Below are positions 5,748 to 41,820 of a stretch of DNA of 64,000 bases, in pieces. How positions within the stretch are numbered: the first letter of the stretch is position 1; each line of letters begins with the position of its first letter. Source of the DNA: Chitinophaga ginsengisegetis. Lineage in GTDB: Bacteria; Bacteroidota; Bacteroidia; Chitinophagales; Chitinophagaceae. The position numbers and the translations under genes are program-made. The stretch lies in assembly GCF_900168065.1 (NCBI RefSeq), contig NZ_FUZZ01000005.1, forward strand, positions 310,001 to 374,000, in the 5' to 3' direction. The notes below the pieces were generated by a model that made no database searches, was not told the DNA's origin, and saw nothing but the letters and a program-made list of their open reading frames with translations.

Positions 5748-5753
5748 GGGCTT

Positions 5754-12139: not shown

Positions 12140-12163
12140 AACCAACAAGATAACTGAAGAATT

Positions 12164-13051: not shown

Positions 13052-13452
13052 CCTTTATCAGCCATAGCCGCCACGGTTTTTTCTTTGGATGCCTGGCGTG
13101 CTATGGCATCTTCCCGGTGCATAGTGCCCCAGTCGGAGATATGCTGCAACATGCTTTCCATGCTCCATCCCAGCGGGGTGAGTTCATATTCCACCCGTGG
13201 AGGAACTTCCGGGTACACGATCCGTTTAACAAGGTGGTCGTTTTCCAGTTCCCTCAACTGCAGAACCAGCACTCTTTCAGAGATGCCGGTGATCGACTTT
13301 TTCAGTTCATTATAGCGTAGTTTACCATCCAGTAAGCGCCACAGTATGCTGGGTTTCCAGCGTCCGCCGATCAACGACAGGGTATACGCTGTTCCGCAGT
13401 CGCCGCGCAGCTGTTTTCCGTTGATGGCATTAGAGGAATTTTCTTTTCGCAT
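13048..13452 (-). CDS. HxlR-family winged-helix transcriptional regulator
   Basis: I place the start at the ATG at 13452 (MRKENSSNAINGK), giving 134 residues, the usual HxlR length. The frame stays open upstream to 13572, but that stretch has no family similarity. The diagnostic start of the domain is CGTAYTLSLIGGRWKPSILW, with Cys20 (the position of the redox-sensing Cys in some members, for example YodB and HypR). The recognition helix reads ITGISERVLVLQLRELENDHLV, then the wing VEYELTPLGWSM. It converges with the dehydrogenase gene, which may be its target. Redox sensing is a possibility, not shown. Confidence 0.88.
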   Translation of the reverse strand: MRKENSSNAINGKQLRGDCGTAYTLSLIGGRWKPSILWRLLDGKLRYNELKKSITGISERVLVLQLRELENDHLVKRIVYPEVPPRVEYELTPLGWSMESMLQHISDWGTMHREDAIARQASKEKTVAAMADKG

Positions 13453-13476
13453 ACGTTCATTTTTTCTTTCCGGGTA

Positions 13477-13522
13477 TAAAGATACGCAATGCACTGCTAT
13501 AGTGAAGGATACCGCTATCCTT
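13477..13522 (-). promoter_or_regulatory. Promoter and 18-bp palindrome upstream of the HxlR gene
   Basis: On the minus strand a -7-like element TATCTTTA (7 of 8 matches) occupies 13484-13477. About 20 bp further upstream is the palindrome AAGGATAGCGGTATCCTT at 13522-13505, with perfect 7-bp arms. It covers the place where a -33 element would be. The geometry fits autorepression by the HxlR dimer. Confidence 0.5.
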
Positions 13523-13578
13523 TTAGTAACCCTGTTCTCTGGTGCCTTACAGTATTGATAACCGCAAGGCATAAAGCA

Positions 13579-13610
13579 AAAAGGGGAAGGTGCACACCTT
13601 CCCCTTTTGT
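13579..13610 (-). terminator. Terminator downstream of the SPFH gene
   Basis: Perfect 14-bp arms (AAAAGGGGAAGGTG and its complement) surround a 2-base centre. Runs of T/A on both sides would let it work in either direction. It separates the SPFH gene from the HxlR gene, both on the minus strand. Confidence 0.85.
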
Positions 13611-13626
13611 TATGCTTCTTATAGTG

Positions 13627-15537
13627 TTACTCTGCCTGTTTTCCGGCTTCGTTTTTCTTTGCCACATCTTCCAGTAATTTGAGTCCGAGCAATCCGCTGA
13701 TCGGACCGTTGGCGCCGTCTCCGCCGCTGATGAGCACATCCGGCATGATGCGGATTTGCTGTGATCCGATGGCTTCCATTACTTTCAGTTGGGTAAAGTT
13801 GTTGCCACCCATTGCTTCTACTGCCAGTTTGTAGGATTCCGCGCTGGACTGACCAATGGCCAGGATCTTTTCTGCTTCTGCTTTACCGGTGAGGGCAATT
13901 TTTTCCGCATCGGCTTTAGCAATCCACTCGGTGCGTTCCGCTTCTGCTTTGGCCAGCAGGCGTACTTTTTCCGCTTCACCGCCGGCCAGTAATTTCATCC
14001 GGTCGCTTTCCGCGTTGGCTTGCAGCCGCACGCTGTTGGCGTCACCGGTGGCTTTTTTCACGGAGGCGTCTGCATGTCTTTCCGCAATCCAAACGCCCTG
14101 GTCGGCTTTTACAATTTCCTTCTGCATTTCTGCAATGGCGGTTTCTTTTTCCAGCGTCTGACGGGTTTCCTGTGCCAGTCGCTCTGTATCATAGGTAATT
14201 TTCTGTTCTTCTGCAATTTTACGGTCGGTCAGTGTTTTCATCAGTGTTTCCGGTGGCACAATGTCGCCGATAAGGGTATCTACCCCGAACACATTGTACT
14301 GATCCAGTACCTGGCCGATATGTTCCTTCGCGGAAGTTTGCCGTTCCTTACGGCTGGTGAGGAAACTGATCACATCTGATCCCTGGGCTGAGTTACGGAA
14401 ATAGTTACCGATGGTAGGTTCCAGTACCTGCGTTACCAGGTTGCTCATGTTACCGAAGCGGGCAATTACTTTAGGGGCTTCAGTAGTTGGGATGTGGATG
14501 ATCTGCGCTACGTCGAGATTAAAAGTAAAACCGTCACGGCTTCTCACGGTGATGGTAGAGAGGTTTTTATCCAGCTGGTGGGCCTCACTTCTGGCGGTGG
14601 CCCAGTTCAGCACCAGGTTGGTGGTAGGCACCAGTTCTACTTTCATGATATAGGGATTAACAGGATACTTACCCGGTCCCAGTGGCTCGGCCCATACGCC
14701 TTTGGTGCCTTTGGCCACGATGTTACCGTGTTTGAATTCTGCGCCGCTGAGATCCACGCCATCATTACCCACGAAGGAGATCACCACGCCTACGTGGCCG
14801 ATGGCGATTTCCGTCATACGCACCATTTCCAGTTTGGCGAACCACGGGTTAATAAAATAGGAACCAGCCAGGATCACCTGTTCCTGTAAGCCTTTGTAGC
14901 CGCCTTTTTCGAGGAAGGCATCCACATCCTGGAAGTTGTTGTGGTTTTCGATGGTTTTACCCGCAATGGAGCCGGTTTCAATGGCCTGTCCTTCGAGAGT
15001 GGTAACAATTCCCACGGCATTATCGGGGATGGATAGCATGTCGGTGATTTCCACTTCAAACAGGAAGGTATTGATACGGTACGATCCGGGCGTGATAATG
15101 GCGGTTTGCCGGCCTTTGCGGCCGCCGTTCTGCAGGAAGGCTACGGCGTCCTGGAAGGAGTCGCAGGGAACCTTGCGGGCCAGGATGGAACCTGTTTCCA
15201 GTTCTGAACCGTCTTTCGCCAGTACCAGTCCGATTTTACCGGTGGGGATGATGGTAAACGGTTGAAAGGTAACGCTGTACTGCCAGATCCATTTCCAGAA
15301 GTATACGCCGGGAGCGAGTGTTTGCGCCTGGAAGCCTGCTTCGCCATTGGTGGCGAGGATGCGGCCTTCGGGCAGTTCCTGTTTACCGATCAGTACAAAT
15401 TTTTTAGTAACCAGACCGATACGGTCTTCCGGTACAATGACTACGCCAAAGCATATACGAAGAATTACTTTGTACAGTACAAGGCATAGAATGGGCAGGC
15501 CGATAAGCAAAGCCCATCTGAGAAATGTGTTTTCCAT
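13627..15537 (-). CDS. SPFH/Band-7 membrane protein with four N-terminal vault-like repeats
   Basis: This 636-residue protein has one N-terminal membrane helix (WALLIGLPILCLVLYKVIL, residues 8-26). Four related repeats follow at about 32-90, 92-165, 166-240 and 241-310. Each starts with a strand of the type IPxxxVGIVxxxxG, and most end with an xxPGxYxINPxxxxVE segment. The SPFH domain is at about 315-500 and an Ala/Glu-rich coiled coil (KAEAERTEWIAKADAEKIAL) follows to about 580. The C terminus is Gly-rich. SPFH proteins assemble into large membrane cages or microdomains. The repeats resemble those of the major vault protein, whose shoulder domain shares the SPFH fold. It is monocistronic. 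Role in the cell is not known. Confidence 0.88.
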   Translation of the reverse strand: MENTFLRWALLIGLPILCLVLYKVILRICFGVVIVPEDRIGLVTKKFVLIGKQELPEGRILATNGEAGFQAQTLAPGVYFWKWIWQYSVTFQPFTIIPTGKIGLVLAKDGSELETGSILARKVPCDSFQDAVAFLQNGGRKGRQTAIITPGSYRINTFLFEVEITDMLSIPDNAVGIVTTLEGQAIETGSIAGKTIENHNNFQDVDAFLEKGGYKGLQEQVILAGSYFINPWFAKLEMVRMTEIAIGHVGVVISFVGNDGVDLSGAEFKHGNIVAKGTKGVWAEPLGPGKYPVNPYIMKVELVPTTNLVLNWATARSEAHQLDKNLSTITVRSRDGFTFNLDVAQIIHIPTTEAPKVIARFGNMSNLVTQVLEPTIGNYFRNSAQGSDVISFLTSRKERQTSAKEHIGQVLDQYNVFGVDTLIGDIVPPETLMKTLTDRKIAEEQKITYDTERLAQETRQTLEKETAIAEMQKEIVKADQGVWIAERHADASVKKATGDANSVRLQANAESDRMKLLAGGEAEKVRLLAKAEAERTEWIAKADAEKIALTGKAEAEKILAIGQSSAESYKLAVEAMGGNNFTQLKVMEAIGSQQIRIMPDVLISGGDGANGPISGLLGLKLLEDVAKKNEAGKQAE

Positions 15538-16056
15538 TTGTAGGGTTGTTGTTAAGGTATGTGTGTTTGTAAAGATGAATTTAAATGCACAGCGATACTG
15601 CTGACGGACGTGTCACTTCAGGGTTTGGGCCATGCATATCTATTTCAGAAAAGTGGGGGCGAAGTGTTGAAGTTCGTAGCGATATAAGCTATCAGGATGT
15701 TGTTGCCGGAGCAATGATCAGATTCCATTGAAAAATGAATTTCGGATGTAAAAGTGATGATTATTTTTCATCTGTCAAAATAATTTCCGGCAGATGATCA
15801 TGGAGGTTAGCCGGGAATTTCAGATAAATGTTTCCGGATGATCTTTGCTGATTATTTCAGATAATGGCGGAGAGGTTTCTTTGAGAACTATTGAAAAATC
15901 TCCCGTTTTTTTTGATTTTTGGAAAAACGCCCTATATTGAGAGCTGTTTAACTGTTTTTCACTTTGCTAAAACGATTTTTCTGAGCATGTCAACCAAATA
16001 GTTTTTTATATTTGTATAGCTTTAACGATTTAGCAAACATTCTATTTATTGAATTT
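15538..16056. other. 519-bp divergent intergenic region
   Basis: This gap separates the divergent SPFH and ROK genes. I see no coding frame and no RNA gene. A perfect -7 element TATATTTG at 16007-16014, 43 bp before the ROK start, is a likely promoter. No good -33 partner is visible. The short motif TTTCCGG followed within a few bases by GATGATC occurs twice (near 15783 and 15831) and may be a regulatory repeat; this is weak. Confidence 0.45.
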
Positions 16057-16935
16057 ATGACAAATTCCACGGCGTTAGGAATAGATATCGGCGGCTCCCA
16101 CATTACCGCAGCACTGGTAGATCTTAACACAAGATCGATCATAGAAGGCACATGGAACCGCATCCGTATTAACTCACAGGGCGAAGTAGCGGATATCATC
16201 GATGGCTGGGCGGCTGTTATCAGGGAAGTATTTACCCACGCTTCAGCAGATGTCCGGCATATTGGTATCGGCATGCCGGGTCCGTTCGACTATGAGCACG
16301 GGATCAGCCTCATGAAAGGGCAACATAAATATGACGCATTATACAACCTGAACGTAAAAGAACTACTGGCAACAAGCCTCGGAATTTCACCGGAACAGAT
16401 CCGCTTTATCAACGATGCCGGCTGCTTCCTGCAGGGCGAAGTGTTCAGCGGCGCCGGCAGAAACCACCAATGCGTGATCGGGCTTACACTGGGCACGGGC
16501 CTGGGTTCGGCCATCTACCGCGATGGAGCAGCCAATGATGCCAACCGCTGGTGCTCTCCTTTTAAAGACGGCATGGCGGAAGACTATCTTTCTACCCGCT
16601 GGTTTGTAAAACGCTATGAAGAAATAAGCGGTGAAACAGTAGCAGATGTAAAAGCACTGGTAGCTCGTATAGGCGTTGACGATAGAATACCGCAACTGTT
16701 CAACGAGTTTGCCGTAAACCTCGGCACTTTACTTACTGCCTTTATTAAAGAAGAACAACCCGAAATTGTAGTGATCGGCGGCAACATTGCCAACGCGGCT
16801 GACCTCTTCTTCCCTCAACTGAAAAAAGAACTGGAAAAACAACAGATCACCGTTCCGGTAGTTACCGCTACCCTCGGTGAGGCGGCAGCCCTGATCGGCG
16901 CAGCCAGCTTATGGCATGCCTTCCAGGAGGCATAG
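16057..16935 (+). CDS. ROK-family sugar kinase or regulator lacking the zinc motif
   Basis: I choose the ATG at 16057 (MTNSTALGIDIGGSHITAAL), giving 292 residues. A TTG at 16012 would add 15 residues without family similarity and would overlap the likely promoter. The ATP-binding phosphate loops GIDIGGSHI and LTLGTGLGSAI and the catalytic Asp in INDAG are present. The CxCGxxGCxE zinc-binding motif typical of ROK glucokinases is absent; the same region reads WCSPFKDGMAEDYLS. There is no N-terminal DNA-binding domain, so a kinase is more likely than a repressor. Substrate is uncertain. Confidence 0.8.
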   Translation: MTNSTALGIDIGGSHITAALVDLNTRSIIEGTWNRIRINSQGEVADIIDGWAAVIREVFTHASADVRHIGIGMPGPFDYEHGISLMKGQHKYDALYNLNVKELLATSLGISPEQIRFINDAGCFLQGEVFSGAGRNHQCVIGLTLGTGLGSAIYRDGAANDANRWCSPFKDGMAEDYLSTRWFVKRYEEISGETVADVKALVARIGVDDRIPQLFNEFAVNLGTLLTAFIKEEQPEIVVIGGNIANAADLFFPQLKKELEKQQITVPVVTATLGEAAALIGAASLWHAFQEA

Positions 16936-29410: not shown

Positions 29411-30463
29411 ATGAAATATTCTTGTTCCCTGCTTCTTTCTTTTGTTGCGTTAAGCAGTTATGCCCAGAATAATAAACTGGAAGCCACTGGCAATGCGGGT
29501 ATTGGCACTACTGCGCCTACTGAAAAGCTGGAAATATCTTCCAACGGTTCTTCAAACATTAAACTAACGCATACCGCGGACGTATTAGGCGTGGTAGGTG
29601 CACTCAAATTCAATATGGCAGGTTCTGATCTGGGAAGGCTGGAAGTAGAGAGAACTGATGCTTCAGGAAGGATGTCTGCCATGAAGTTTTTTGTGCGGGG
29701 TAGTGGGGGCGAATTTGAAACAATGAGGATTGTGAATAATGGATTTGTAGGGATTGGAGAAACCTCTCCATCTGCCAGGCTGCATGTTGATGGTTCGCCT
29801 GGAACTGTATTTGCCAGATTTACACAAACAGATGTTTCCGCGGCGGATGGCGCACTGAGTTTTATGAATGGCACTGGTAGCACAGGGAATTATATTCCCG
29901 TTATCAACGGACGGAGTTACATGCCAGGTCGTTCGTTGGGTCTTTATCTTATAGCCGATGTAGAGGACGTACTTCCAGCTTCTGATATTGCCTATGGCGC
30001 GATGATACTTGACAGCAGAAGTAAAACAGGGGCGAGGCTGACAACCAGTAATGTTCTGGCGGTTAACAGCGGAGGAGTAAACCTGATGCTGGTAAAAGCC
30101 AACGGCAGTGTGGGCATAGGCACCACGGATACTAAAGGATATAAGCTGGCTGTGAACGGCAGCGGCATCTTTACAAAAGTCGTTGTGAAATCCTATGCCA
30201 ATTGGCCAGATTTCGTTTTCCGCTCAGATTACAAATTACCAACCCTGTCCGAAGTAGAACAGTTTGTTGCAAAAAATCAGCATCTCCCAGGTATTCCATC
30301 TGCCAGCGAAGTAGAAAAAAACGGAGTGGATGTAGGAGAAATGAACAAACAATTATTGCAGAAAGTTGAGGAACAAATGTTGTATATTATAGAGATGAAT
30401 AAGCAACTCGCTACTCTTTCAAAAGAAGTGGAAGTGCTTAAACAGAAGATCGCCGCGAAATAA
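29411..30463 (+). CDS. Secreted fibre-like protein, paralogue 1
   Basis: I use the ATG at 29411 (MKYSCSLLLSFVALSSYAQ), giving 350 residues with a clear signal peptide. A TTG at 29393 in frame is less likely. The body holds repeats of the type NAGIGTTAPTEKLEI and GFVGIGETSPSARLHV, which are typical of phage-tail-fibre-like beta structures in Bacteroidota. The C-terminal 90 residues have a conserved module (WPDFVFRSDYKLPTLSEVE, then HLPGIPSASEVEKNGVDVGE) that ends in a coiled coil. The same module ends the protein at 31928-33121. It opens the block that leads to the RHS genes. A trimeric surface fibre is the likely form; this is inference. Confidence 0.8.
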   Translation: MKYSCSLLLSFVALSSYAQNNKLEATGNAGIGTTAPTEKLEISSNGSSNIKLTHTADVLGVVGALKFNMAGSDLGRLEVERTDASGRMSAMKFFVRGSGGEFETMRIVNNGFVGIGETSPSARLHVDGSPGTVFARFTQTDVSAADGALSFMNGTGSTGNYIPVINGRSYMPGRSLGLYLIADVEDVLPASDIAYGAMILDSRSKTGARLTTSNVLAVNSGGVNLMLVKANGSVGIGTTDTKGYKLAVNGSGIFTKVVVKSYANWPDFVFRSDYKLPTLSEVEQFVAKNQHLPGIPSASEVEKNGVDVGEMNKQLLQKVEEQMLYIIEMNKQLATLSKEVEVLKQKIAAK

Positions 30464-30477
30464 CCCCCTGATTTGCC

Positions 30478-31899
30478 ATGAAAACTATTTATCAACTGAC
30501 CTTATTATTGTTTGCCTGCCTGTGTACTGCCCAGGCCCAGGACAGCCTGTTGCAAAAAGCGAATGCCATTCCGGGTAAATACCTGTCGCAGGTAAAACAA
30601 AAGTCCGATAAAATGGAACGGCAAATCACCCAGCGCAGCGAAAAAGCCCTGAGCCGGTTTATGAAGCAGGAAGAGAAGCTGAAACGCAGGCTGGGTCGTA
30701 TCGACTCCCTGAAAGCCAATAATCTTTTTGCGCATTCGATCGATTCCCTCGGAAGTTTGAAGTCCCGCATGAAAGGCAAGCTTGGGAAGTATTCCGGTGC
30801 TTTAACACAGTCCGGCGGTCCTTACCTCGATAGCCTTAGCAATTCACTGTCCTTTCTGAAAGATTCCAAAGGCTTACTGGAAAAATCCAAAGGTGTTACC
30901 GATAAATTGAATGGCTCGTTAAAATCTGTCGATAACCTGAAAGACAAACTGGCCCAGGCAGAACAGATCAAAGCGTATATACGTGAGCGTAAACAGCTGC
31001 TGAAAGAACAGTTAAGTCAGTATACCGGTTTCACCAAAGATCTGCAGAAAATGAACAAGGAAGCCTACTATTATGCACAGCAACTGAAAGAGTATAAAGA
31101 GGTTTTTAAAGATAAAAAGAAGGCAGAGCAAAAAGCAATGGAAGTGATAAAGAAGATACCCGCTTTCAATGACTTTATGCAGAAACATTCCCAGCTCGCC
31201 AGTTTATTTAATATACAAGGCGCCACTGGCTCAGCCCCCAACCTCGAAGGATTGCAAACGCGCAACCAGGTGGAACAGCTCATCCAGCAACGCTTAGGTA
31301 GCGGCCCCAATGCCAGCGCCGCTGTAAGTCAGCAAATGGCCGAAGCCCGCAGCAAATTCGACGAACTGAAAAGCAAGTTCCCCGATCTTGATAATGCCGC
31401 AGAGATGCCGGATTTCAAGCCAAAGGAAATGAAAACAAAAAGTTTCCTGCAACGATTGGAGTTTGGCAGCAATATACAGTTCCAGCGTAGTAATAAATTC
31501 TTTCCCACCACCGGCGACCTCGCCGGGCAAGCTGCCTATAAGTTTCATAAAAATGGAAGCGCCGGTCTTGGGCTTTCTTACAAACTGGGCATGGGCACCG
31601 GCTTTGACAATATCCAATTCTCCGGTCAGGGTATGGGGATCCGCTCCTTCATCGACTGGAAGCTGAAAGGCACCTTCTTCCTGAATGGCGGCTATGAGCA
31701 GAATTATCAGCCTGATTACGCCGGTGTGCCGGAAGGAGTAGGACAGAAGTGGACCCAGAGCGGGTTGATTGGTATCAGTAAGAAGTATAAGATCAATAGT
31801 AAGCTGAAAGGGAATATGATGGTGTTGTTTGATTTTTTGTATAACCAGCATGTGCCGCGCACGGATCCCGTGAAGGTGAGGCTGGGGTATAATTTTTAA
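30478..31899 (+). CDS. Secreted coiled-coil protein with possible beta-barrel C terminus
   Basis: This 473-residue protein has a signal peptide ending TAQAQD near residue 21. A long charged helical region rich in Lys, Glu and Leu covers about residues 25-240 (QEEKLKRRLGRIDSLKANN). The C-terminal 150 residues alternate polar and hydrophobic residues with Gly and aromatic positions (GLGLSYKLGMGTGFDNIQFS, ending VKVRLGYNF). The terminal Phe is typical of outer-membrane beta-barrels. It lies 14 bp after the first fibre gene and 28 bp before the second. I do not recognise a named family. An outer-membrane anchor for the fibres or the RHS proteins is a hypothesis. Confidence 0.72.
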   Translation: MKTIYQLTLLLFACLCTAQAQDSLLQKANAIPGKYLSQVKQKSDKMERQITQRSEKALSRFMKQEEKLKRRLGRIDSLKANNLFAHSIDSLGSLKSRMKGKLGKYSGALTQSGGPYLDSLSNSLSFLKDSKGLLEKSKGVTDKLNGSLKSVDNLKDKLAQAEQIKAYIRERKQLLKEQLSQYTGFTKDLQKMNKEAYYYAQQLKEYKEVFKDKKKAEQKAMEVIKKIPAFNDFMQKHSQLASLFNIQGATGSAPNLEGLQTRNQVEQLIQQRLGSGPNASAAVSQQMAEARSKFDELKSKFPDLDNAAEMPDFKPKEMKTKSFLQRLEFGSNIQFQRSNKFFPTTGDLAGQAAYKFHKNGSAGLGLSYKLGMGTGFDNIQFSGQGMGIRSFIDWKLKGTFFLNGGYEQNYQPDYAGVPEGVGQKWTQSGLIGISKKYKINSKLKGNMMVLFDFLYNQHVPRTDPVKVRLGYNF

Positions 31900-31927
31900 T
31901 TTTTTTATTACTCAAAAACTATTCTGA

Positions 31928-33121
31928 ATGCATTCTTTTTTTCGTCTGTACCGTTTGTTAACCAGTATCATTTTGATCATTTCCGGTTTAAGTGTAAAAG
32001 CGGCTCATGTAAGTGGACCGGGCGACTGGCTCGCAATGGGCAATACCAACGCCAATGTATCTCCCTACAACTTTTACTATTACAAAGTAGCTAAAATTAA
32101 TAGTGATGCACATCGGTATGCTACCACCATCGAGTTGGATATAGAGGGAGATGCCAATGCCTATTATATGCAGGGTACCTATCGTATCCGTATCAACAAA
32201 TATGAAAATACTACCGGGAGATTCGATGGATTGGAGATTCGCTCTATATCCGGTAATCCGTCCGCTGCCACTTTTTATGTTTTTAATGATGCTTTATGGG
32301 TAAGATCCAATTATCAATGGGGAAGTATTTATTATCGCACTATTGACTATCTGGCCACAAGCCCTATAAACTCAGCTCCTTTTGATCAGACCGTCATAGC
32401 CCCGGTAGGTTTTGTGGCAAGTACCAGCACTTATGGCCTGAAATGCGATTTTGATAATAATCAGTACTATCAATTGTCCTATGAAGATGTGCAGGGAAAT
32501 ACCACAAATATGGGGAAAATGGGAATAGGCACTGTGCCGGCATATGCGCTGCATACAGTTGCACAGGGTAATACAACTAGGGCATCTGCTTATTTATGGG
32601 GAGAAAACTATGGCGTGGCGGTCGGTACCTTGAATGCATCGGCTACCAATTATTCATTTGCCGTTTTAAATAATGCCAACATAGACGGGTCCGGCGCCAC
32701 CGGCGGAGGTAAACCACTATTATATGTTAGAGGTGATGGTAATGTAGGTATAGGTACGAATGCTCCCCAGGCAAAACTGGCAGTGAAGGGAGATATTTTT
32801 GCCCAGAAAGTGAAGGTTACACAGAGTGGTTGGGCGGATTTTGTATTTCATCCGGATTATGAGTTGCCATCATTACAGGAGGTAGAACGCTTTATTAAGG
32901 TGAATAAGCATTTGCCGGAGATTCCTTCAGAGAAAGAAGTAGAGAAAGAAGGACTGGATGTAGGAGAGATGAATAAGAAGTTATTGCAGAAGATTGAAGA
33001 GCTGACGTTGTATATTATTGACCTGAAGAAAGAAAGTGTGGAACAACGGAGGGAGTTGGAGAAGTTGAAGGATAAGATTAAAAACGAAGCGAATAAACCC
33101 GCTGGAAAATATAATAGGTAA
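31928..33121 (+). CDS. Secreted fibre-like protein, paralogue 2
   Basis: This 397-residue protein has a signal peptide (LTSIILIISGLSVKAAHVSG, residues 11-30). The unique N-terminal domain of about 190 residues may be the binding head. GIGT-type repeats follow (NVGIGTNAPQAKLAVKGDIF). The C-terminal module is shared with the protein at 29411-30463 (WADFVFHPDYELPSLQEVE, HLPEIPSEKEVEKEGLDVGE) and ends in a coiled coil. The two proteins differ in their N-terminal parts and agree in their C-terminal parts, which fits a common docking or trimerisation end. It precedes the RHS pair by 88 bp. Confidence 0.8.
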   Translation: MHSFFRLYRLLTSIILIISGLSVKAAHVSGPGDWLAMGNTNANVSPYNFYYYKVAKINSDAHRYATTIELDIEGDANAYYMQGTYRIRINKYENTTGRFDGLEIRSISGNPSAATFYVFNDALWVRSNYQWGSIYYRTIDYLATSPINSAPFDQTVIAPVGFVASTSTYGLKCDFDNNQYYQLSYEDVQGNTTNMGKMGIGTVPAYALHTVAQGNTTRASAYLWGENYGVAVGTLNASATNYSFAVLNNANIDGSGATGGGKPLLYVRGDGNVGIGTNAPQAKLAVKGDIFAQKVKVTQSGWADFVFHPDYELPSLQEVERFIKVNKHLPEIPSEKEVEKEGLDVGEMNKKLLQKIEELTLYIIDLKKESVEQRRELEKLKDKIKNEANKPAGKYNR

Positions 33122-33209
33122 GTGAGCAAATTGTTTCTCACTTGAAGTTAAATATTCGTCCAACCATGTGTATATGACGATTTGTGTTTAAGTAAGTATA
33201 TCTGAAATT

Positions 33210-36200
33210 ATGAAATGGATTAATGGTATTTTCTTTTGTTTGGTTATCCTGTTAACCCGGGCGGAAGCTCAGACACTACCTTCTGTTACCTTTAAGACGC
33301 CAGAGGTGGCGGCATTTAACAGGTTTATCGAGACCCCGGTTTCCTATTATACTGGTGTTCCTAACATCAGTATTCCTTTGTATGAAATTAAAATAAAAGG
33401 TGTGACGGTTCCAATAACACTTGATTATCATGCGGGTGGTATAAGGGTGGATCAGGATGCTACATGGGTGGGACTCGGATGGAGCCTGAGTTATGGAGGA
33501 GAGATCTCCAGGAAAACCAAAGGAGCCCCAGATGAAAATTATTACTACACAGGTGGGATAAATAACAGAGGACTTACTATAGATGAGTTTAATAACCTCG
33601 CTATTGACGACGAGAGCCAGGCTCAGGTACGGCTGGAAAATATTACTGCAGCTAAGTATAACAGGAAGGATTATATGCCCGATGAGTTCTACTATAACAT
33701 ATTGGGAATGGGCGGGCGTTTTATGTACAGCCAGAAGCAAAATAAATTTATTCTATTTCCTAAGGAAGACATTCTTGTTGCGCAGTATGACAACAATAAT
33801 ACACTTAATGGAGCCATCAATCCATTCAATTACTGGAACCTGAAATTACCTGATGGTACAAGTGTGGATCTTGGAAAAGATGGTACTATTACTGATGATC
33901 CATTAAGTGTGACACCTGCCGGCGCATTCAAAAGCGCATGGAATGTAAAAACTATCAGAAATATATTTAATGACAGCATTAATTATACCTACGAGAAATT
34001 TAACTACATCAATTATCGCTTATCTGGTCTTAGAGTAAGTCTTTTTCAATCCTCGGTAGCAAGCGGAAATATGGGTAGAGATGGTTTTTATGACAACTTA
34101 TCCAATAGTGCTTATTTGAGTGGAGTCCGGTATTATGATGCGAGACCAAGTTCAATTACTTATCCGGAAGGGAAAGTTGATTTCCTTACCACAAGCAGGA
34201 ATGATGCGCCTTCGAGAGCTTTGAACGAAATAAATGTGACAAACCAGCAAGGTCAACTGATCAGGAAAATACGTTTCTATTACAGTTACTTTTATGCTGA
34301 TGCCTTTGACAGGTACATCAATAATGAGAGTATATTCCCGTCTGAATATCGTTTTCAGCGATTGCGGCTTGACAGCATTGCTATAAGCGGAAGTGACAAT
34401 ACTGCGCCAGTGAAATACAAGTTCGATTATTATGTTTCCCAGGATATGCCATCCAAGTTTACCTATTCTCAGGATCATTGGGGCTTTTATAATGGAGCTG
34501 CCAATACTTCTCAGTATTCCTTTATACCGAATATTGCTCCGGACATATTTACCGGAGGAGATAGAAGTGTACATTCTTTAAAAGCCAATGTTTTTTCTAT
34601 CAAGAGTATTACTTATCCGGAAGGAGGGAAAAGTGAATTTGTATATGAAGGTAACACTGCCGGTATATGGAATATGCCTGTGGAAACCTATCAGGATGAT
34701 AACACTAATATTGCAGAAAAATCTGCGGCTATTGGAATCAGTAGCTATAGCAGGAGTACGTCATATCCATCGCCGGATTATGTAAATGGAAGTGGTGGAC
34801 GTTGTTTTACAAAAACTTTTGTCGTTGAAAACGGCGTACAGCCGGCGATAGGATATGGCTGGGAATGTAGTACTAATTTTGGTATTTCTGACCTGGAGAA
34901 AGATATGCCTCCCAATGTTAACAATGTGAACTTTCTGTTGGAGAAACTGGATGCTGGAAGATATGTATCCGTACGGGAGTTCAATACTGCATACTATCAG
35001 GGATCAGTAGTGGTGCGCAAAGGGGAGGATAAACAACCTTTATCGCTCACACCAGGGAGTTATAAAATTACAGTGACGTTATCTTATGGTAATCAGCCTG
35101 GCTCTCCGCCTGATAATCAACCCTACAATCTCTCATTTATAGTGAAATGGAGGCAAGTTAATACTGGGTCTAATATGGTAAATGTGGGAGGTTTGCGCAT
35201 AAAAGACATTAATTACTATGATAATGATGGCAAGTTGGCCAAAAAGAAAAGTTACACTTATTTAAATCCGTACGCCTATCCGGCAAACCCTAATTTCACT
35301 TCAGGCAGAGTAGTATCTTTTCCTCAATATTTTCAATATAACTTCAAGTATTATCCCCAAACAACAAGTTCAGGAGGAGGAATTCAAGCACAAATGCAAT
35401 GGGGAATAAACTTTTACTCCAATTCTGTATTACCTCTGGAAACGACTTCTGGTTCCTATTGTGGATATGAATACGTAGATGAGTATACGGTCGATAATAC
35501 TAATCCCGATAATAACCAACGGATTGGGTACAAATTTTCCTTCGCTATGCCCTACTTTAGTCAATATTATCAATACAACTATCATGGTATTATAGAACCA
35601 CAAGAATGGACAAGAGGGAAATTGCTTGAAACAAAATATTATAAAGGCGATAAAGTCGTAAAAAAGGATTCAATCAGCTATTACGATTGGTCTCCGCATT
35701 TGAATGATATCTCAGAAGAAGATTACGTACAGGAGATTAATACAAATCTTATCAGCTTCCAGTATCTCAATTTTTTTAATCGTAATACAGCATTGCCGGA
35801 GGACTTTTATGATAATGCTCCCCCAAGTATTAATTACGATGACTATCCCAATTTTAACAGGGCTGCCGGGGGAGTTCATTGTGTAAAGTTTAACTTTGGT
35901 GCAGTCCCAAGCACAGTTGATTTCGCCTGGCCATATCTCCTTCTCTCATGTCAACCTTCTATTTATGTGAAAGTCCCGTATTTTACTCACAATACAGGCT
36001 TTAATAAGCCCAAAACAAAAACGGTTATCACTTTCGACGATGCGGGTAACAGTATTCAGGAAAATGAAGCGTACTACTATGAGAAAACGCCACTCCATTA
36101 CCAGTTGACGCAAACAGCCATAATAAATAGTAAAAAAGATACCCTGAAACAAAAGAACCAGTATGCGGCAGACTTTGGATCTCTGCTTCCCTATTCTGCT

Positions 36201-36773
36201 ATGGTACAGCGTAATATGGTAAATAGTGTTGTTTCTACATCCAGCTATAAGAATAGTACTTTTCTGCAGTCCTTGAAGGCAAACTATAAGGATTGGGGAA
36301 ATAATATTTTTATGCCGGTTTCTTCAGAAACTCAGACGGCTGGATTTGCAACAGAGCAACGCATGAATTTTGAAGGCTACGACAGCAAAGGTAATTTGTT
36401 AGGTATGTCCCAATCTGGGGGTGTAACCACCGCCTATCTCTGGGGGTATAAGGGACTGTACCCGGTAGCCAGAATTGAAGGCGCAGATTACAACACAGTA
36501 AAGACATATATCACGCAAAGTATTCTTGATAACCCTCTCAGCGATCAACAATTGAGAGACGAAATAAATAACCTGAGAGCTAAGCTGCCAAATACACTGA
36601 TCACTACCTATACTTATATGCCATCCATAGGTATTACAAGTGAAACCAGCCCTGCAAACAGAACAACATTTTATGAATATGATGGTTTGGGTCGCCTCAG
36701 ATTAATTAAAGACCAAAATGGTAAAATTCTGAAGCAATTTGACTATCAATATCAAAAACCTATTAACCAATGA
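33210..36773 (+). CDS. RHS-type shell protein without core (upstream half of split RHS)
   Basis: This 1187-residue protein has a signal peptide ending RAEAQT near residue 20. Its N-terminal domain is the one usual in Bacteroidota RHS companions (TPVSYYTGVPNISIPLYEI, LDYHAGGIRVDQDATWVGLG). Beta-rich strands follow, many with YD/YE dipeptides. It closes with an RHS-like repeat (YEYDGLGRLRLIKDQNGKI). It has no RHS-associated core and no toxin tip. Its stop overlaps the ATG of the next RHS gene by 4 bp (ATGA at 36770-36773), so the two products are probably made in fixed ratio. By analogy with TcB-TcC, the pair may build one cage; this is inference. Confidence 0.85.
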   Translation: MKWINGIFFCLVILLTRAEAQTLPSVTFKTPEVAAFNRFIETPVSYYTGVPNISIPLYEIKIKGVTVPITLDYHAGGIRVDQDATWVGLGWSLSYGGEISRKTKGAPDENYYYTGGINNRGLTIDEFNNLAIDDESQAQVRLENITAAKYNRKDYMPDEFYYNILGMGGRFMYSQKQNKFILFPKEDILVAQYDNNNTLNGAINPFNYWNLKLPDGTSVDLGKDGTITDDPLSVTPAGAFKSAWNVKTIRNIFNDSINYTYEKFNYINYRLSGLRVSLFQSSVASGNMGRDGFYDNLSNSAYLSGVRYYDARPSSITYPEGKVDFLTTSRNDAPSRALNEINVTNQQGQLIRKIRFYYSYFYADAFDRYINNESIFPSEYRFQRLRLDSIAISGSDNTAPVKYKFDYYVSQDMPSKFTYSQDHWGFYNGAANTSQYSFIPNIAPDIFTGGDRSVHSLKANVFSIKSITYPEGGKSEFVYEGNTAGIWNMPVETYQDDNTNIAEKSAAIGISSYSRSTSYPSPDYVNGSGGRCFTKTFVVENGVQPAIGYGWECSTNFGISDLEKDMPPNVNNVNFLLEKLDAGRYVSVREFNTAYYQGSVVVRKGEDKQPLSLTPGSYKITVTLSYGNQPGSPPDNQPYNLSFIVKWRQVNTGSNMVNVGGLRIKDINYYDNDGKLAKKKSYTYLNPYAYPANPNFTSGRVVSFPQYFQYNFKYYPQTTSSGGGIQAQMQWGINFYSNSVLPLETTSGSYCGYEYVDEYTVDNTNPDNNQRIGYKFSFAMPYFSQYYQYNYHGIIEPQEWTRGKLLETKYYKGDKVVKKDSISYYDWSPHLNDISEEDYVQEINTNLISFQYLNFFNRNTALPEDFYDNAPPSINYDDYPNFNRAAGGVHCVKFNFGAVPSTVDFAWPYLLLSCQPSIYVKVPYFTHNTGFNKPKTKTVITFDDAGNSIQENEAYYYEKTPLHYQLTQTAIINSKKDTLKQKNQYAADFGSLLPYSAMVQRNMVNSVVSTSSYKNSTFLQSLKANYKDWGNNIFMPVSSETQTAGFATEQRMNFEGYDSKGNLLGMSQSGGVTTAYLWGYKGLYPVARIEGADYNTVKTYITQSILDNPLSDQQLRDEINNLRAKLPNTLITTYTYMPSIGITSETSPANRTTFYEYDGLGRLRLIKDQNGKILKQFDYQYQKPINQ

Positions 36774-39700
36774 TTTCATCCTTGATATCTATTTCAAAGC
36801 AGCATGGGATTTCTTATTATCCAAGGTTGGCTGGTATTGTAGCAGGTTTGTTTTCAGGTATGTTAACTGTAACAGCCCAAACTCCAAACACATCTACAAG
36901 ACCTGTAGCTACACCTGTGCAAACTCCGGCTGCCTATACCAATCCACTCATCAACTACGTCCGTACCTGGGAACCAGCGTTGCCAACTACAGACACCGCA
37001 TATGTGGCATCGGCCAGCCGGTCGGTTGCGGAAGTGAGGCAAACAACGGCCTATGTGGATGGTCTGGGAAGGCCATTGCAAACGGTAGCAAAAGCAATGA
37101 GCTTTGGTGGTAACGATATTGTATCTCCTGTAGTTTACGATCAATTTGGAAGAGAACAGACTAAATATCTGCCTTATGTTCCGCAGGGTGTGAAAGATGG
37201 CAAGTTTAAAACAGATCCATTTAACGCGCAGAAAAGTTTCTACCAGACACAGGTTCCCGGCGCCAGTGGAGAAAGTGTTTATTATAGTCGTGTTGATTAT
37301 GAAGCATCGCCTTTGAACCGGGTGCTGAAAACCTATGCCCCTGGCAACAGCTGGGCAAAGAACGATCCTTCGACGGTGGAAAGGGGAGGAAACCACCCGG
37401 TGGAAAACCAATACCTGATAAATGCCGCGACAGATTCAGTGCGCATCTGGGACTTCGCTGCCGGAGCTATTATTCCTACCAGTGCAGCAGGCCGCATATA
37501 TGCAGCCGGCCAGCTGTATAAAAATATATCAATCGATGAAGCAGGTGGTCAGGTAGTTGAATACAAAGATAAAGAAGGTAAGGTTCTGCTTAAAAAAGTA
37601 CAACTGGGTACAAATCCTGGTACTGGTCATATGGGCTGGTTATGCACCTATTATGCCTATGATGATCTGGGTAACCTGCGTTTTGTAATACCTCCCAAAG
37701 CAGTGGAAGCCATTATCAGTAACTGGACAATCAGTACAGCCATCGCAGCCGAACTCTGTTTTATCTATCGTTATGATGGTCGCAACCGTATGATCGTAAA
37801 AAAAGTACCCGGCGCCGACTCCACAGAAATGGTCTATGATGTACGCGACAGGTTGGCTTTTTCCCGGGATGGCAATATGAAGGGTGAAAGCTGGCTGGTG
37901 ACTTTCTATGATGGGCTGAATCGTCCTACAATGACAGCCCTCTACAACGTTGCCACCGACCGGGCCATATTGCAGGCAACTATGAATACGGCAACCAGCA
38001 ATACGCAAAGCCTGTCGTATAACTTTCCGGGAACAGCGGACCTGGTACTGGCGTTTCATAATGGGAGTAACTCCTACGTGGCTACCAACAGTATTACTCT
38101 TACAGATGGTTTTGACACCGGAACAGGAACGGAGGTGATCGCAGAGATCAATACCGCAGCCAGTAATGGTACCGCCAGTGTTACTGTTACTAATCCGCTG
38201 CCTAATATACCCATCAGTGCACTAACACCGCTGACTTACACCTTTTACGAGAGTTATGGATTTGCCGGTAAGCAAAACTACGCTAGTACAGATATTACTA
38301 AACCGCAAGCCGGTAGTAACTTAAATGCAGAAGCGCTACCTGCCACTGCCAGCACTATGATAAAAGGGCTGGTTACTGGCACTAAAGTAAAAGTGCTGGA
38401 TACCGACCAATGGCTGACCACCACCAACTATTACAACGACAAAGGACGACTGATCCAGACGATATCGGACAATGTCAGCAGAGGGCAGGACGTGACCACT
38501 AACCTGTATGATTTTAATGGAAAGCTGTTAAGCACTTATCTCAGTCATAGGAATCAGCGCAGTGGTACCCGTCCTCAAACGGACGTACTAACTATGTTGA
38601 CATACGATGCCGGCGGGCGTCTGCTTAGCATCAAAAAGAAGCTGAATAATGACGCGGATCTGGAAAGGACAATAGCCGTAAATGAGTATGATGAGCTTGG
38701 TCAGCTAAAGAAAAAGCGTTTAGGTATAAACGGAACCGGCGCTCCGGTGGAAACGTTAAATTACGACTACAATATCCGGGGCTGGCTAAAGGGAATTAAC
38801 AAGGATTTTATTCCTGCAGCCGGAAGCATAACAAACTGGTTTGGGCAGGAGCTTAGTTATGATTACGGTTTCACCGCCTCTCAATTCAATGGAAACATTG
38901 CAGGCGCGAAATGGAAAAGCCGCAGTAATGGAATTGCCCGCGCCTATGGATACAGTTATGATAAGGGTAATCGCCTGACGGGGGCACAGTTTACTCAGCA
39001 AAACACGGGCAGTACCAACTGGACTGATAATCTGGCAAATTTCTCTGTAAGCGGACTGTCGTATGATGCCAACGGTAATATCCTGTACATGAACCAGAAA
39101 GGGTTAAATGGCGCCGTAGTGCAAACCATTGACAGCTTAAAGTATGGTTATGTTGCAGGTAGTAATAAACTATCATTTGTAACAGACAGGAAAAACAACA
39201 CACAAAGCCAGCTGGGCGATTTTAAAGAGATCAATAACAATGAAACAGCGGATTATATTTATGATGTCAATGGTAATCTCACTAAAGACGCCAATAAGAA
39301 TATAGCCGCTATTCGTTATAACCATCTCAATCTGCCGGATAGTATAGCTATTACCGGTAAGGGCCTCATCAAATATCAATATGACGCTGCCGGGAATAAA
39401 CTAAGAAAGATAGTTGTAGATAATACCCTTACCCCGGCCAAAACTACCACGACGGATTATATTAACGGTTTTGTTTACCAGAATGATACCCTGCAGTTTT
39501 TGGCTCATGAGGAAGGGCGGGTGCGTGCTGTTTTTGAATCGGGCCAACCACTTGCATTTGCATACGATTACTTCGTAAAGGATCATCTCGGAAATGTACG
39601 GATGGTGTTGACAGAGCAAACAGATCTTTCGATGTATGCAGCCACAATGGAAACATCCGCGGCAGCAACAGAAACTGCTTTGTTCAGTAATATTGATAAC

Positions 39701-41299
39701 ACCCGTTCAGCTAAACCTGCAGGGTATCCATCAGATGAGAGTGCGGGGACTAACGCTTCTGTGTCAAAATTGACAGCAGCCAATGGTGGTAAGAAAATAG
39801 GTCCTTCCCTTGTACTGAGGGTCATGGCTGGAGATACGATCCAGATTGGTGCAAAAGCCTTCTATAAATCCACGGGGCCTCAAAATAAGAATACCCCAAC
39901 AGCGCCCGCAGAAAGTATGCTGGCGGACCTGGTGCAGGTATTTAATGGTAGCACTTCTGCAGACGGCACTCACGGTGTGGCATCCTCTGAACAGGCAACG
40001 CCGTTTAACAGCAGTTTCTATAATAATGATTACCAGCGTCTGAAGGAAAAGGAACCTGATCAGCAAAACGTTGACCGACCCAAAGCGTACCTTAATTTTG
40101 TTTTGTTTGACGATCAGTTTAAATTAGTAGACGGGAATAGTGGAGTGAAGCAGGTAAAGGCAGAACCGGATCAGCTACAAACATTGGCCCAGGATAAAAT
40201 GGTGATGGAGAAGAGTGGGTTCCTGTATGTTTACACAAGTAACGAAAGTCCGCAGGATGTGTTCTTTGATAATGTAGTAGTAGCGCAGGCGAGTGGGCCG
40301 TTGTTGGAGGAAACGCATTATTATCCGTTTGGGTTGACGATGGCGGGGATTAGTTCCAATGCGTTGAAGGGTGCCAATTATCCTGAAAACCGCAAGAAAT
40401 ATAATGGGATAGAATTTACGGAAGATCTGGATCTTGATATATATGATGCGCAGTTGAGGAATCTAGATCCGCAGATAGGCAGGTGGAACCAGATAGATCC
40501 GAAGATTGAAAAGATGGAGATGTGGAGTCCATATGTATCTAACTATGATAATCCGATTAGGTATAATGACTTTCTGGGAGATGAACCTGGTGGTCCAGGA
40601 GATCCAGAAACATGGAATACAAGTAGTAGTGGCTATGATATTCTGAAAGGAGGACTGGAAATTAAAGCGGGTATCAAGAATTTAATATCATCCGTAGTTA
40701 GTCAGTTGACTTCTGTAAATGGTATGGGGCCCCGAACTGTTTACAGTGTAACGGAAGGAATGAATGATAATGGAGGAAGAACAGCAGAGATAACAAGTTC
40801 CGTTGTTTTTGACAAGGATGCAGGAAGTCGGTTTTTGAATTGGGAGGTAGGTAAAGGAGCCGTTAATTTAGCGTCATTAACCCCAGCGGGGAAAATTGGT
40901 GCACTAAATACGCCTATGTTGGCTGCGGAAGCGGGCGGGCCAACTGTGGCTAATGAGGGTATAAAATTAGCAGAGCAAGCATCTTATACATTAACTAAGC
41001 ATGGAGAATTAACTAATGGAGTATATACAGTATCACAAGAGGCAATGAAGAAACATGTATTTGGTGGTGTTGAAGGGAAAAGTGTGTTTTACCCAACAGT
41101 GAATGCTAACGAAACGGTATTAAAAGCGGCAGAGCATGCAGATGCAGCAGGGTTATGGAATGCGCAAGGTAAAGCTAAGGTTCAGGTTCTAAATACCAAT
41201 GTAGGCATACTAGGTAGTGGAGAGCCAACAAACTTTATTAATATCTACAGGAAAATAAATGGGCTTATTCATGGATCTCCGGGCACTCCGGTAAAATAG
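36770..41299 (+). CDS. RHS-repeat protein with RHS core and variable C-terminal (putative toxin) tip
   Basis: This 1509-residue protein has a signal peptide ending TVTAQ at residues 33-37. A DUF6443-type N-terminal domain follows (TAYVDGLGRPLQTVAKAMSF). RHS/YD repeats run through the middle (YDANGNILYMNQKG, YDVNGNLTKDANKN, YQYDAAGNKLRKI). The RHS-associated core is at about residues 1195-1268 (HYYPFGLTMAG, DAQLRNLDPQIGRWNQIDP, SNYDNPIRYNDFLGDEPG). The remaining 240 residues are unrelated to RHS. The last 105 or so (from TLTKHGELTNGVY) form a compact, Lys/His-containing domain ending GLIHGSPGTPVK. I do not recognise its family; a small RNase of the BECR type is possible. The tip is more A+T-rich than the body. 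Confidence 0.88.
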   Translation: MISSLISISKQHGISYYPRLAGIVAGLFSGMLTVTAQTPNTSTRPVATPVQTPAAYTNPLINYVRTWEPALPTTDTAYVASASRSVAEVRQTTAYVDGLGRPLQTVAKAMSFGGNDIVSPVVYDQFGREQTKYLPYVPQGVKDGKFKTDPFNAQKSFYQTQVPGASGESVYYSRVDYEASPLNRVLKTYAPGNSWAKNDPSTVERGGNHPVENQYLINAATDSVRIWDFAAGAIIPTSAAGRIYAAGQLYKNISIDEAGGQVVEYKDKEGKVLLKKVQLGTNPGTGHMGWLCTYYAYDDLGNLRFVIPPKAVEAIISNWTISTAIAAELCFIYRYDGRNRMIVKKVPGADSTEMVYDVRDRLAFSRDGNMKGESWLVTFYDGLNRPTMTALYNVATDRAILQATMNTATSNTQSLSYNFPGTADLVLAFHNGSNSYVATNSITLTDGFDTGTGTEVIAEINTAASNGTASVTVTNPLPNIPISALTPLTYTFYESYGFAGKQNYASTDITKPQAGSNLNAEALPATASTMIKGLVTGTKVKVLDTDQWLTTTNYYNDKGRLIQTISDNVSRGQDVTTNLYDFNGKLLSTYLSHRNQRSGTRPQTDVLTMLTYDAGGRLLSIKKKLNNDADLERTIAVNEYDELGQLKKKRLGINGTGAPVETLNYDYNIRGWLKGINKDFIPAAGSITNWFGQELSYDYGFTASQFNGNIAGAKWKSRSNGIARAYGYSYDKGNRLTGAQFTQQNTGSTNWTDNLANFSVSGLSYDANGNILYMNQKGLNGAVVQTIDSLKYGYVAGSNKLSFVTDRKNNTQSQLGDFKEINNNETADYIYDVNGNLTKDANKNIAAIRYNHLNLPDSIAITGKGLIKYQYDAAGNKLRKIVVDNTLTPAKTTTTDYINGFVYQNDTLQFLAHEEGRVRAVFESGQPLAFAYDYFVKDHLGNVRMVLTEQTDLSMYAATMETSAAATETALFSNIDNTRSAKPAGYPSDESAGTNASVSKLTAANGGKKIGPSLVLRVMAGDTIQIGAKAFYKSTGPQNKNTPTAPAESMLADLVQVFNGSTSADGTHGVASSEQATPFNSSFYNNDYQRLKEKEPDQQNVDRPKAYLNFVLFDDQFKLVDGNSGVKQVKAEPDQLQTLAQDKMVMEKSGFLYVYTSNESPQDVFFDNVVVAQASGPLLEETHYYPFGLTMAGISSNALKGANYPENRKKYNGIEFTEDLDLDIYDAQLRNLDPQIGRWNQIDPKIEKMEMWSPYVSNYDNPIRYNDFLGDEPGGPGDPETWNTSSSGYDILKGGLEIKAGIKNLISSVVSQLTSVNGMGPRTVYSVTEGMNDNGGRTAEITSSVVFDKDAGSRFLNWEVGKGAVNLASLTPAGKIGALNTPMLAAEAGGPTVANEGIKLAEQASYTLTKHGELTNGVYTVSQEAMKKHVFGGVEGKSVFYPTVNANETVLKAAEHADAAGLWNAQGKAKVQVLNTNVGILGSGEPTNFINIYRKINGLIHGSPGTPVK

Positions 41300-41304
41300 G
41301 TATT

Positions 41305-41694
41305 ATGAAAGATATCACACATAGTATAGAAAAGGCAATCAGTCAGGATGTATTGTGGCGACAAGGCTTTTCCAACATAATTAAGAAATTGGAGAATAAT
41401 GGATATATTATATCTTTTTGGGAAAATGAGGAAAATTGGGCCTCCATTCTTTTGGGAGATGAGATTATTGGCTATATGTGGGAAAAGTATCCGTTGGTGT
41501 TTATTAAGTCTCAACATTCTGATTCTATAAAGAGTCTTTTAAGTGAAGGGCAGCCAATAGTTTTTATAGATGCCAATGAAATGACAGAGAAAGTATTTAT
41601 AATTAATTACGAGGCGTTAAAGGATTATATTGATTATGGATTACCTGATGATGGGTTTTCTGCAGAAGACTTTTGGTTTGTTACAAATACATAA
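41305..41694 (+). CDS. Putative immunity protein for the RHS tip
   Basis: This 129-residue acidic, soluble protein has no signal peptide, unlike every other gene of the block. It starts 5 bp after the RHS stop and is strikingly A+T-rich, like the toxin tip. Segments are IIKKLENNGYIISFWENEE and NYEALKDYIDYGLPDDGF. It resembles no family I can name with certainty. Position, size, cytoplasmic location and acidity are the usual marks of an immunity protein that binds the toxin domain. It is followed by strong hairpins. Confidence 0.72.
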   Translation: MKDITHSIEKAISQDVLWRQGFSNIIKKLENNGYIISFWENEENWASILLGDEIIGYMWEKYPLVFIKSQHSDSIKSLLSEGQPIVFIDANEMTEKVFIINYEALKDYIDYGLPDDGFSAEDFWFVTNT

Positions 41695-41700
41695 CATAAA

Positions 41701-41820
41701 ATGAAAGAGCCGCAAGCGTAGATACTTGCGGCTCTTTCATTTTGTCATAGGGCAGAGAGAAGCCGCGGGTATCGCCCGCGGCTTCTCTGTTTATCGTGAA
41801 GAGCCGTTTGCGACTCTTCT
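41701..41820. terminator. Cluster of three hairpins between convergent genes
   Basis: The first has perfect 16-bp arms (ATGAAAGAGCCGCAAG, 41701-41716, with 41725-41740). The second has perfect 14-bp arms (AGAGAAGCCGCGGG, 41756-41769, with 41775-41788). The third is short, 6-bp arms GAAGAG/CTCTTC at 41798-41819. They share the GAAGAGCC/GAGAAGCC theme. They stop transcription from both the RHS side and the metallopeptidase side. Confidence 0.8.

Follow-up and report, generated by a model that had tools for sequence, protein, structure and literature searches.

The window analysed here, a stretch of 64,000 nucleotides from the 7.9-Mb genome of Chitinophaga ginsengisegetis (contig 4, positions 310001 to 374000), contains between positions 29411 and 41694 six open reading frames (ORFs) on the same strand, fib1, ccb, fib2, rhsA, rhsB and a small gene, which probably encode an exported polymorphic toxin of the RHS type together with fibre-like proteins and a putative outer-membrane partner (Table 1). 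An earlier reading made from the letters and an ORF list alone, hereafter the sequence-only reading, had described six consecutive genes on one strand, and all six ORFs were recovered. In operon order the genes are separated by 14, 28, 88, -4 and 5 bp; the start of fib1 is the ATG at 29411, and the ORF listing also gives a TTG further upstream, at 29393. The GC content of the individual genes ranges from 0.33 to 0.47, compared to 0.484 for the remaining window. The terminator-like hairpin lies just 3' of the small gene; terminator-like sites are not enriched in the window (9 versus a mean of 11.9 in shuffled sequences) and matches to sigma-70 promoters occur at chance level (34 versus 31.4 in shuffles).

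Table 1. Genes and predicted features of the RHS locus (positions in the window)
Feature	Position	Strand	Remarks
fib1	29411..30463	+	signal peptide, tail-fibre-like N-terminal part, C-terminal module; PHROG tail-fibre profiles
fibC module of fib1	30104..30454	+	56% identity to fib2 module (own-genome search)
ccb	30478..31899	+	signal peptide, helical domain of ~280 residues, C-terminal predicted outer-membrane barrel
ccb helical (coiled-coil) domain	30544..31377	+	residues ~23-300; predicted periplasmic; AlphaFold2 model
ccb predicted 8-stranded OmpA-type barrel	31456..31896	+	residues 327-473
fib2, second fibre-like protein	31928..33121	+	weak match to Bdellovibrio fibre bd2133
fibC module of fib2	32738..33118	+	9 own-genome matches, self included
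rhsA, putative TcB/Rhs-type cage half	33210..36773	+	
rhsB, putative TcC-like cage half; bears core and candidate toxin tip	36770..41299	+	
DUF6443 domain of rhsB	36986..37375	+	PF20041, 8.6e-48
Rhs-associated core of rhsB, end diverged	40319..40579	+	TIGR03696, 31.2 bits versus cut-off of 32.5
Variable C-terminal tip of rhsB, candidate toxin	40583..41296	+	singleton among 72 tips; no Pfam family
Small A+T-rich gene, candidate immunity gene	41305..41694	+	GC 0.328; 5 bp past rhsB
Terminator-like hairpin	41698..41743	.	listed on minus strand

The RHS pair and its variable tip

With regard to rhsA, a Foldseek search of the PDB with the predicted structure returned Tc BC components as all 13 best matches, and the model aligned with Tc BC chains over 508 to 628 residues at 3.7 to 4.7 Å; the protein thus matches a TcB-type half shell with an SpvB-like N-terminal domain, at the level of fold only and with low TM scores over the whole model. 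By sequence rhsA is far less telling, as Pfam sees a single RHS repeat at its end (7.2e-6), a sequence search of the PDB gave no match, and the TcB signatures SpvB and TcdB_toxin_mid were not found by Pfam in the window protein; among 40 scanned relatives, one matched SpvB (0.079) and one TcdB_toxin_midN (0.0061). In a second type of rhsA (genes of L053, L061, L069 and L012), DUF5977 comes after the final RHS repeat, as seen in 4 of 5 proteins scanned. rhsB has a DUF6443 domain, and the core that the sequence-only reading had attributed to the second RHS protein was recovered as an Rhs-associated core slightly under its cut-off; profile matches of the core include the teneurin-like structure 9pt5 (4.1e-6) and 9ifo (5.5e-5), and rhsB also matches Rhs 7q97. 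By sequence and model, rhsA looks like a TcB/Rhs-type half shell, while rhsB resembles TcC and teneurins and ends in a hypervariable tip; the fold searches support the earlier proposal of an RHS cage split over two proteins.

To delimit the tips, rhsB proteins and fragments were pooled (n = 95); an initial tip pattern missed 55 of the 95, including the window rhsB, and was replaced by a crude motif rule, which cut 79 tips, the 16 proteins without the motif being dropped. Seventy-five of these tips were at least 60 residues long, and the 72 distinct ones fell into 57 clusters, 45 of them singletons, while the rhsB core was matched in 74 of 74 carriers with a median identity of 42%. We thus found three features by which polymorphic toxins are recognised, namely a conserved carrier with interchangeable C-terminal tips, small immunity-like genes that follow the tips, and tip cassettes that occur as orphans; the rhsB fragments of 60 to 613 residues numbered 20, and some tips among them are each followed by a small ORF (L084, L107, L118). 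The window tip matches no Pfam family and, among 295 genomes of the class, has one weak partial relative besides itself, and the small gene matches no family above cut-off in Pfam or NCBIfam; by analogy, the tip is a candidate toxin and the small gene a candidate immunity gene.

Six loci in other Chitinophaga (L121, L122, L124, L125, L126 and L136) were judged by gene order and length to occupy the same chromosomal site. Their ccb genes are 86 to 97% identical to that of the window and the first 1000 residues of rhsB, where present, 59 to 81%; residues 1 to 550 of rhsA are only 25 to 30% identical in five of the six (91% in L121). None of the 11 loci compared showed the tip or the small gene of the window, although two of them, L121 and L124, end before the tip. 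The window genome itself has three clusters with an RHS pair, i.e., the window, L012, which includes a ccb gene, and L013. A further RHS-like locus of this genome, L014 (G000 C9:277000-296000, at 1582-16074), encodes proteins of 1185, 845, 367 and 2173 residues; the first has a PHB-depolymerase-like stretch under the cut-off, the last two have relatives in L110 and L175, and a 1090-residue protein of L110 includes a ccb-like helical part. A DUF6443 match lies in a frame of 2866 residues just past L014, at C9:276462.

ccb, the fibres and their association with the RHS genes

The sequence-only reading had described a coiled-coil protein with a possible outer-membrane barrel, and the AlphaFold2 model of ccb bears this out: a helical domain is followed by a C-terminus predicted to fold as an OmpA-type barrel with eight antiparallel transmembrane strands, model confidence being low at residues 241 to 308. 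The protein is 97% identical to one of Chitinophaga polysaccharea, and a PDB sequence search gave weak matches of the coiled-coil type only. In 8-stranded barrels of the OmpA type, a preceding helical part lies in the periplasm, and such barrels have no protein-sized pore. Given eight modelled strands and this topology, the helical domain of ccb should face the periplasm, and the protein as modelled is too narrow for an export pore. The earlier idea that the barrel protein displays the cage is thus not supported in its simple form, since a coiled coil predicted to lie in the periplasm cannot simply hold the cage outside.

Among 147 Chitinophagaceae genomes, ccb was present in 60 and DUF6443 in 73. 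Co-occurrence, which the sequence-only reading had proposed as a check, was assessed on 117 ccb matches, about 15 short or weak ones being omitted; 20 matches under 1050 bases were dropped, and the remaining 97 genes came from 55 genomes, one (in G123) having internal stops. At least 67 of the 97 have a same-strand DUF6443 match no more than 12 kb downstream, against a rough chance expectation of 0.45, so the coiled-coil and RHS genes do co-occur in this family; the gap is 3.5 to 5.0 kb, about the length of one rhsA, in at least 43 cases and approximately 0.2 kb in at least 4. Genomes with a strong DUF6443 match (E below 1e-20, a threshold set by us) had ccb in 53 of 55 cases, compared to 7 of 92 other genomes (Fisher test, 1.3e-29, with species that are not independent). 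A census of neighbouring genes in 49 loci of 40 genomes was led by the families rhsA (42), rhsB (37), fibC (12) and a small family (8). A set of 80 loci from public records, some of which end early at contig ends and which shares species and some loci with the Chitinophagaceae genome set, showed rhsA or rhsB in 64, fibC in 44 and none of these in 11; when fibres and ORFs under 200 residues were ignored, the gene next after ccb was rhsA in 55 loci and rhsB in one. Beyond the family ccb is rare: of 296 genomes sampled across the phylum 11 match, and six of these belong to Chitinophagaceae. Four weak matches to the barrel region in another family of the class (L105-L108) adjoin rhsA or rhsB genes or fragments; a fifth, L109, does not adjoin RHS genes, and the weakest, in G322, was left out.

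Several observations on ccb and on the genes between the RHS halves stand apart from this association. Seven ccb genes (L131, L133, L134, L137, L150, L151 and L177) have neighbouring genes without RHS or fibre, and ccb may have a second use besides RHS loci. Matches often lie at contig ends (G009, G029, G036, G084, G096), perhaps because repeated RHS genes break assemblies. Twelve of 18 proteins encoded between rhsA and rhsB form one family, two scanned members of which match glutathione peroxidase (7e-22 and 7e-7); three glutathione-peroxidase-like proteins look secreted (L072:5958-6491, L067:7367-7891 and L119:9634-10215) and have no cysteine at what we take to be the usual catalytic place.

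The two fibre proteins resemble each other over their C-terminal ~127 residues only (53.5% identity), in agreement with the shared C-terminal module reported previously. The statement in the sequence-only reading that no phage gene is present needs a qualifier, as fib1 resembles phage tail-fibre profiles of PHROG (3.4e-11 and 1.9e-9), and fib2 weakly matches the Bdellovibrio fibre bd2133 (8ond, E 0.0064). Of the 56 loci in which an RHS gene comes next after ccb, 29 have fibres interposed, and of nine fibC matches in the window genome, one with a stop, three are within RHS loci. Given these 29 loci and the own-genome copies away from complete RHS genes, fibres are optional, and the notion that they belong to the display set is not supported in its original form. 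One own-genome match, L015, adjoins only an rhsA-like fragment of 77 residues.

Across the phylum, 52 of 292 genomes had DUF6443; outside Chitinophagaceae, 20 loci from other families, mostly with strong DUF6443 matches, were picked by hand. In all 20, rhsB follows rhsA in the same orientation, directly in 19 (gaps of -116 to 126 bp) and with a fibre between in one, and ccb is present in none. Eight loci share one homologous protein family directly upstream of rhsA, with one member cut by a contig end; the seven full-length members carry at their C-terminus a type A sorting domain of the type IX secretion system (T9SS) above cut-off (E 1.2e-8 to 1.1e-12), and six of them match a beta-propeller model under its cut-off. 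Three loci (L214, L220 and L221) have a fibre, a coiled-coil protein and a protein of 231 to 243 residues beside the RHS pair; the three coiled-coil proteins were aligned, and that of L220 matches OmpH/Skp (2.7e-25). Homology between ccb and this OmpH-like partner was tested for, and none was found. In the remaining nine loci there was no partner that could be named. The RHS pair is thus constant in these loci, and the partner in the envelope apparently differs between lineages, with ccb in 0, the T9SS-sorted family in 8 and the coiled-coil set in 3 of the 20.

A probable Sec-exported toxin cage and competing explanations

We consider it probable, from sequence and predicted structures, that the locus encodes a Sec-exported polymorphic toxin cage of the Tc-BC type, antibacterial in function, with a lineage-specific partner in the outer envelope. 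Genes, linkage, folds at the level of models and variation of the tips form its basis so far, and from these we infer closure of the cage, docking, export, target binding, toxicity and immunity. According to this scheme, rhsA and rhsB would pass Sec unfolded and then, in the periplasm, enclose the tip in a joint cocoon. ccb, through its helical domain, would tether this cocoon or its fibres to the periplasmic face of the outer membrane, in the manner of the PorP/SprF barrels that are each dedicated to one T9SS cargo, and the cage would exit to the surface or into vesicles by a route encoded elsewhere. The T9SS is proposed as the most likely route because 59 of 60 ccb genomes encode it and because 8 of 20 loci elsewhere have a T9SS-sorted partner. 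The fibres would bind neighbouring cells, the tip would attack them, and the small gene would protect the producer. A broader proposal, which we put forward tentatively, is that Bacteroidota have a widespread two-protein, Sec-exported RHS cage for which exchangeable, lineage-specific partners serve passage through the outer envelope. Chitinophagaceae would use ccb for this, others a T9SS-sorted protein that is probably a beta-propeller, and a third group possibly a membrane-bound, Skp/OmpH-like coiled-coil protein together with a fibre.

A number of points weigh against the proposal of a Sec-exported cage. The sequence-only reading had given all genes but the last a Sec signal; in our crude signal-peptide test, fib1, ccb, fib2 and rhsA pass and the small gene fails, as stated, but the window rhsB fails as well. 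The test lets many proteins through (226 of 419 other ORFs longer than 300 residues, and 8 of 34 rhsB fragments); a signal peptide on the window rhsB is nonetheless likely, because 73 of 83 of its relatives pass and because the paralogue in L013, alignable from rhsB residue 23 onward, begins with an evident one. Toxicity, immunity and localisation are predictions, and toxicity of the window tip, which has no clear relative, is proposed by analogy. As to the cage, the 13 Tc matches of rhsA score low over the whole model (TMq 0.31-0.39, root-mean-square deviation 24-29 Å), the VIA-align Z is higher for cages of the type VI secretion system (T6SS; up to 18.1) than for Tc components (11.2-15.9), and the label 'TcB-like' thus derives from the ranking by Foldseek, the length of the alignments and the SpvB-like N-terminus. 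In rhsB the end of the Rhs core is diverged, which makes self-cleavage uncertain. As to linkage, 83 of the 150 DUF6443 matches listed have no ccb within 12 kb upstream, the own-genome locus L013 holds rhsA, a fibre and rhsB without ccb, and 16 of the 80 public-record ccb loci show no RHS gene in the stretch examined (5 with fibres alone, 11 with neither). As to immunity, full rhsB genes are followed by a same-strand ORF of at least 60 residues at -60 to 200 bp in 69 of 74 cases, a count made without a control, and 46 of these 69 ORFs start with a hydrophobic stretch and look secreted or membrane-bound. An envelope location may therefore be common among the candidate immunity proteins; the small gene of the window differs in this respect. 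As to exit, neither rhsA nor rhsB has a T9SS sorting domain, and SprA, found in the 59 of 60 ccb genomes, is near-universal in the family (139 of 147), so that its presence carries little information. The absence of a T9SS C-terminal domain noted earlier was confirmed for all six proteins by an NCBIfam scan, with a library that does detect the domain in 7 of 7 partner proteins from other loci. Near ccb, a model of the partner domain matched 5 of 1194 and 2 of 593 ORFs but no member of the four families.

The closest competitor, which differs from the proposed Sec-exported cage in the exit step alone and which we regard as distinctly less probable, is that the cage stays periplasmic on ccb and leaves by outer-membrane vesicles or lysis. 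The topology that places the helical domain of ccb in the periplasm, the lack of any export signal beyond Sec found in the six proteins and the established absence of a protein-sized pore in 8-stranded barrels all fit such an account; however, tail-fibre-like adhesins make little sense within a cell, and the same RHS pair is found next to a T9SS-sorted protein in other families. We judge it unlikely that the RHS pair, fibres and ccb form a non-toxic surface structure for adhesion or kin recognition, with the tips as recognition domains. Variation is not confined to the tips, since in the five same-site loci with divergent rhsA N-terminal regions ccb is 86 to 92% identical; ccb occurs with fibres alone in 5 of 80 loci; and the RHS-like teneurins are adhesion receptors of animals, according to PMC13018210. 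The small ORFs behind rhsB, for which the uncontrolled count was given above, and the orphan tips with small ORFs resemble toxin-immunity arrangements instead.

Slightly more improbable still is that the pair represents the BC part of an ordinary Tc toxin aimed at eukaryotes, with TcA encoded elsewhere. The TcB-like fold of rhsA would agree with this. The TcB-binding domain of TcA (PF18276) was detected in 20 genomes out of 147, more often in those that have ccb (16 of 60 versus 4 of 87, p 1.7e-4). The domain was, however, not found in the window genome (G000), on which ground a complete Tc toxin there was rejected, or in 44 of the 60 ccb genomes; the window rhsA has no TcB Pfam signature, and the small genes after tips and the orphan fragments point to competition among kin. 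Neither TssC nor TcA was found in 37 of the 60 ccb genomes, among which incomplete genomes could hide some, and larger genomes may explain the excess of both with ccb.

One refutation named by the sequence-only reading, i.e., that the RHS pair is cargo of a T6SS encoded elsewhere, here taken with ccb and the fibres as unrelated neighbours, has very little probability: the T6SS Rhs effectors share the cage fold and give the highest Z, and genomes with ccb have the sheath gene TssC somewhat more often than others (14 of 60 versus 8 of 87, p 0.03), but it was not found in 46 of the 60 (some genomes being incomplete), Pfam and NCBIfam scans at E up to 1 found no PAAR or other T6SS-loading domain in the six proteins, most members have N-terminal signal peptides, and the co-occurrence of ccb is too strong for an unrelated neighbour. 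The sheath here belongs to the Bacteroidota family PF17541, over cut-off in 22 of 147 genomes, and a search with VipB PF05943 alone (0 of 147) is therefore misleading; since the window genome is among the 22 (G000:C9:1932623), the earlier statement that no T6SS is present at the locus does not extend to the genome. A TssC match under the cut-off inside a ccb gene (G027:C3:756449-756604) is probably a coiled-coil false positive.

Comparison with known systems

RHS cages are known from the T6SS, from Tc toxins with TcA and in the form of secreted teneurin-like proteins. The delivery route of toxins such as the one proposed here may be undescribed: in the literature covered, which leaves most subscription papers and bioRxiv outside, no paper with the term DUF6443 was found, and no RHS module with ccb was seen in titles or abstract openings. 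The module names a concrete and conserved candidate partner for a Sec-exported RHS cage, so that delivery becomes testable by gene deletion; if the broader proposal is true, such toxins would have their own delivery pathway, which would explain, within a single phylum, the delivery of cage toxins that have neither a T6SS nor TcA.

The BC component of Tc toxins, TcB-TcC, likewise has a cage split over adjacent genes with a variable tip on the second protein; the locus described here differs in that its genome shows no TcB-binding domain of TcA, in the Sec-type starts, and in the barrel and fibre genes of the operon. Passages of PMC7861908 consider that orphan TcC proteins are possibly delivered by other means; the term Bacteroid is absent from that paper. 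Signal-peptide toxins with RHS and tail-fibre repeats are listed in passages of a 2012 catalogue (PMC3482391), along with a class of TcdB/TcaC type, which has a signal peptide and an SpvB domain and extends to bacteroidetes; the passages concerned describe no barrel partner, ccb or exchangeable envelope partner, and the beta-propeller of that class was not found by Pfam in the window proteins. Secreted bacterial teneurin-like RHS/YD cages with a variable toxic C-terminus, for which the authors saw no obvious delivery machinery, are described in parts of a 2026 paper (PMC13018210), which also report a TIP domain in 96% of these proteins; these are single chains, in contrast to the two chains and the outer-membrane partner gene found here.

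TANFOR toxins, as presented in sections of PMC7073777, are large polymorphic toxins of Bacteroidetes, mostly with signal peptide and encoded near T9SS substrates, and their T9SS export was put forward as speculation; the sections concerned do not mention a split RHS cage or ccb, and an NCBIfam scan, in a library whose TANFOR model was unchecked, gave no TANFOR match in the six proteins. The Bdellovibrio mosaic adhesive trimer fibres (passages of PMC10769870) are, like the fibres here, phage-like, being trimeric and located on the bacterial surface; they end in S74 or tip domains rather than in a fibC module, and RHS cages are not mentioned in the passages concerned. Finally, in PorP/SprF shuttles, as portrayed in parts of PMC12618676, an outer-membrane barrel is encoded beside its cargo and needed for it, an arrangement that the proposed role of ccb resembles; ccb differs in that it matches no such family in Pfam or NCBIfam scans (the presence of the model in these libraries was unchecked), in its eight modelled strands and long helical domain, and in having partners without T9SS sorting domains.

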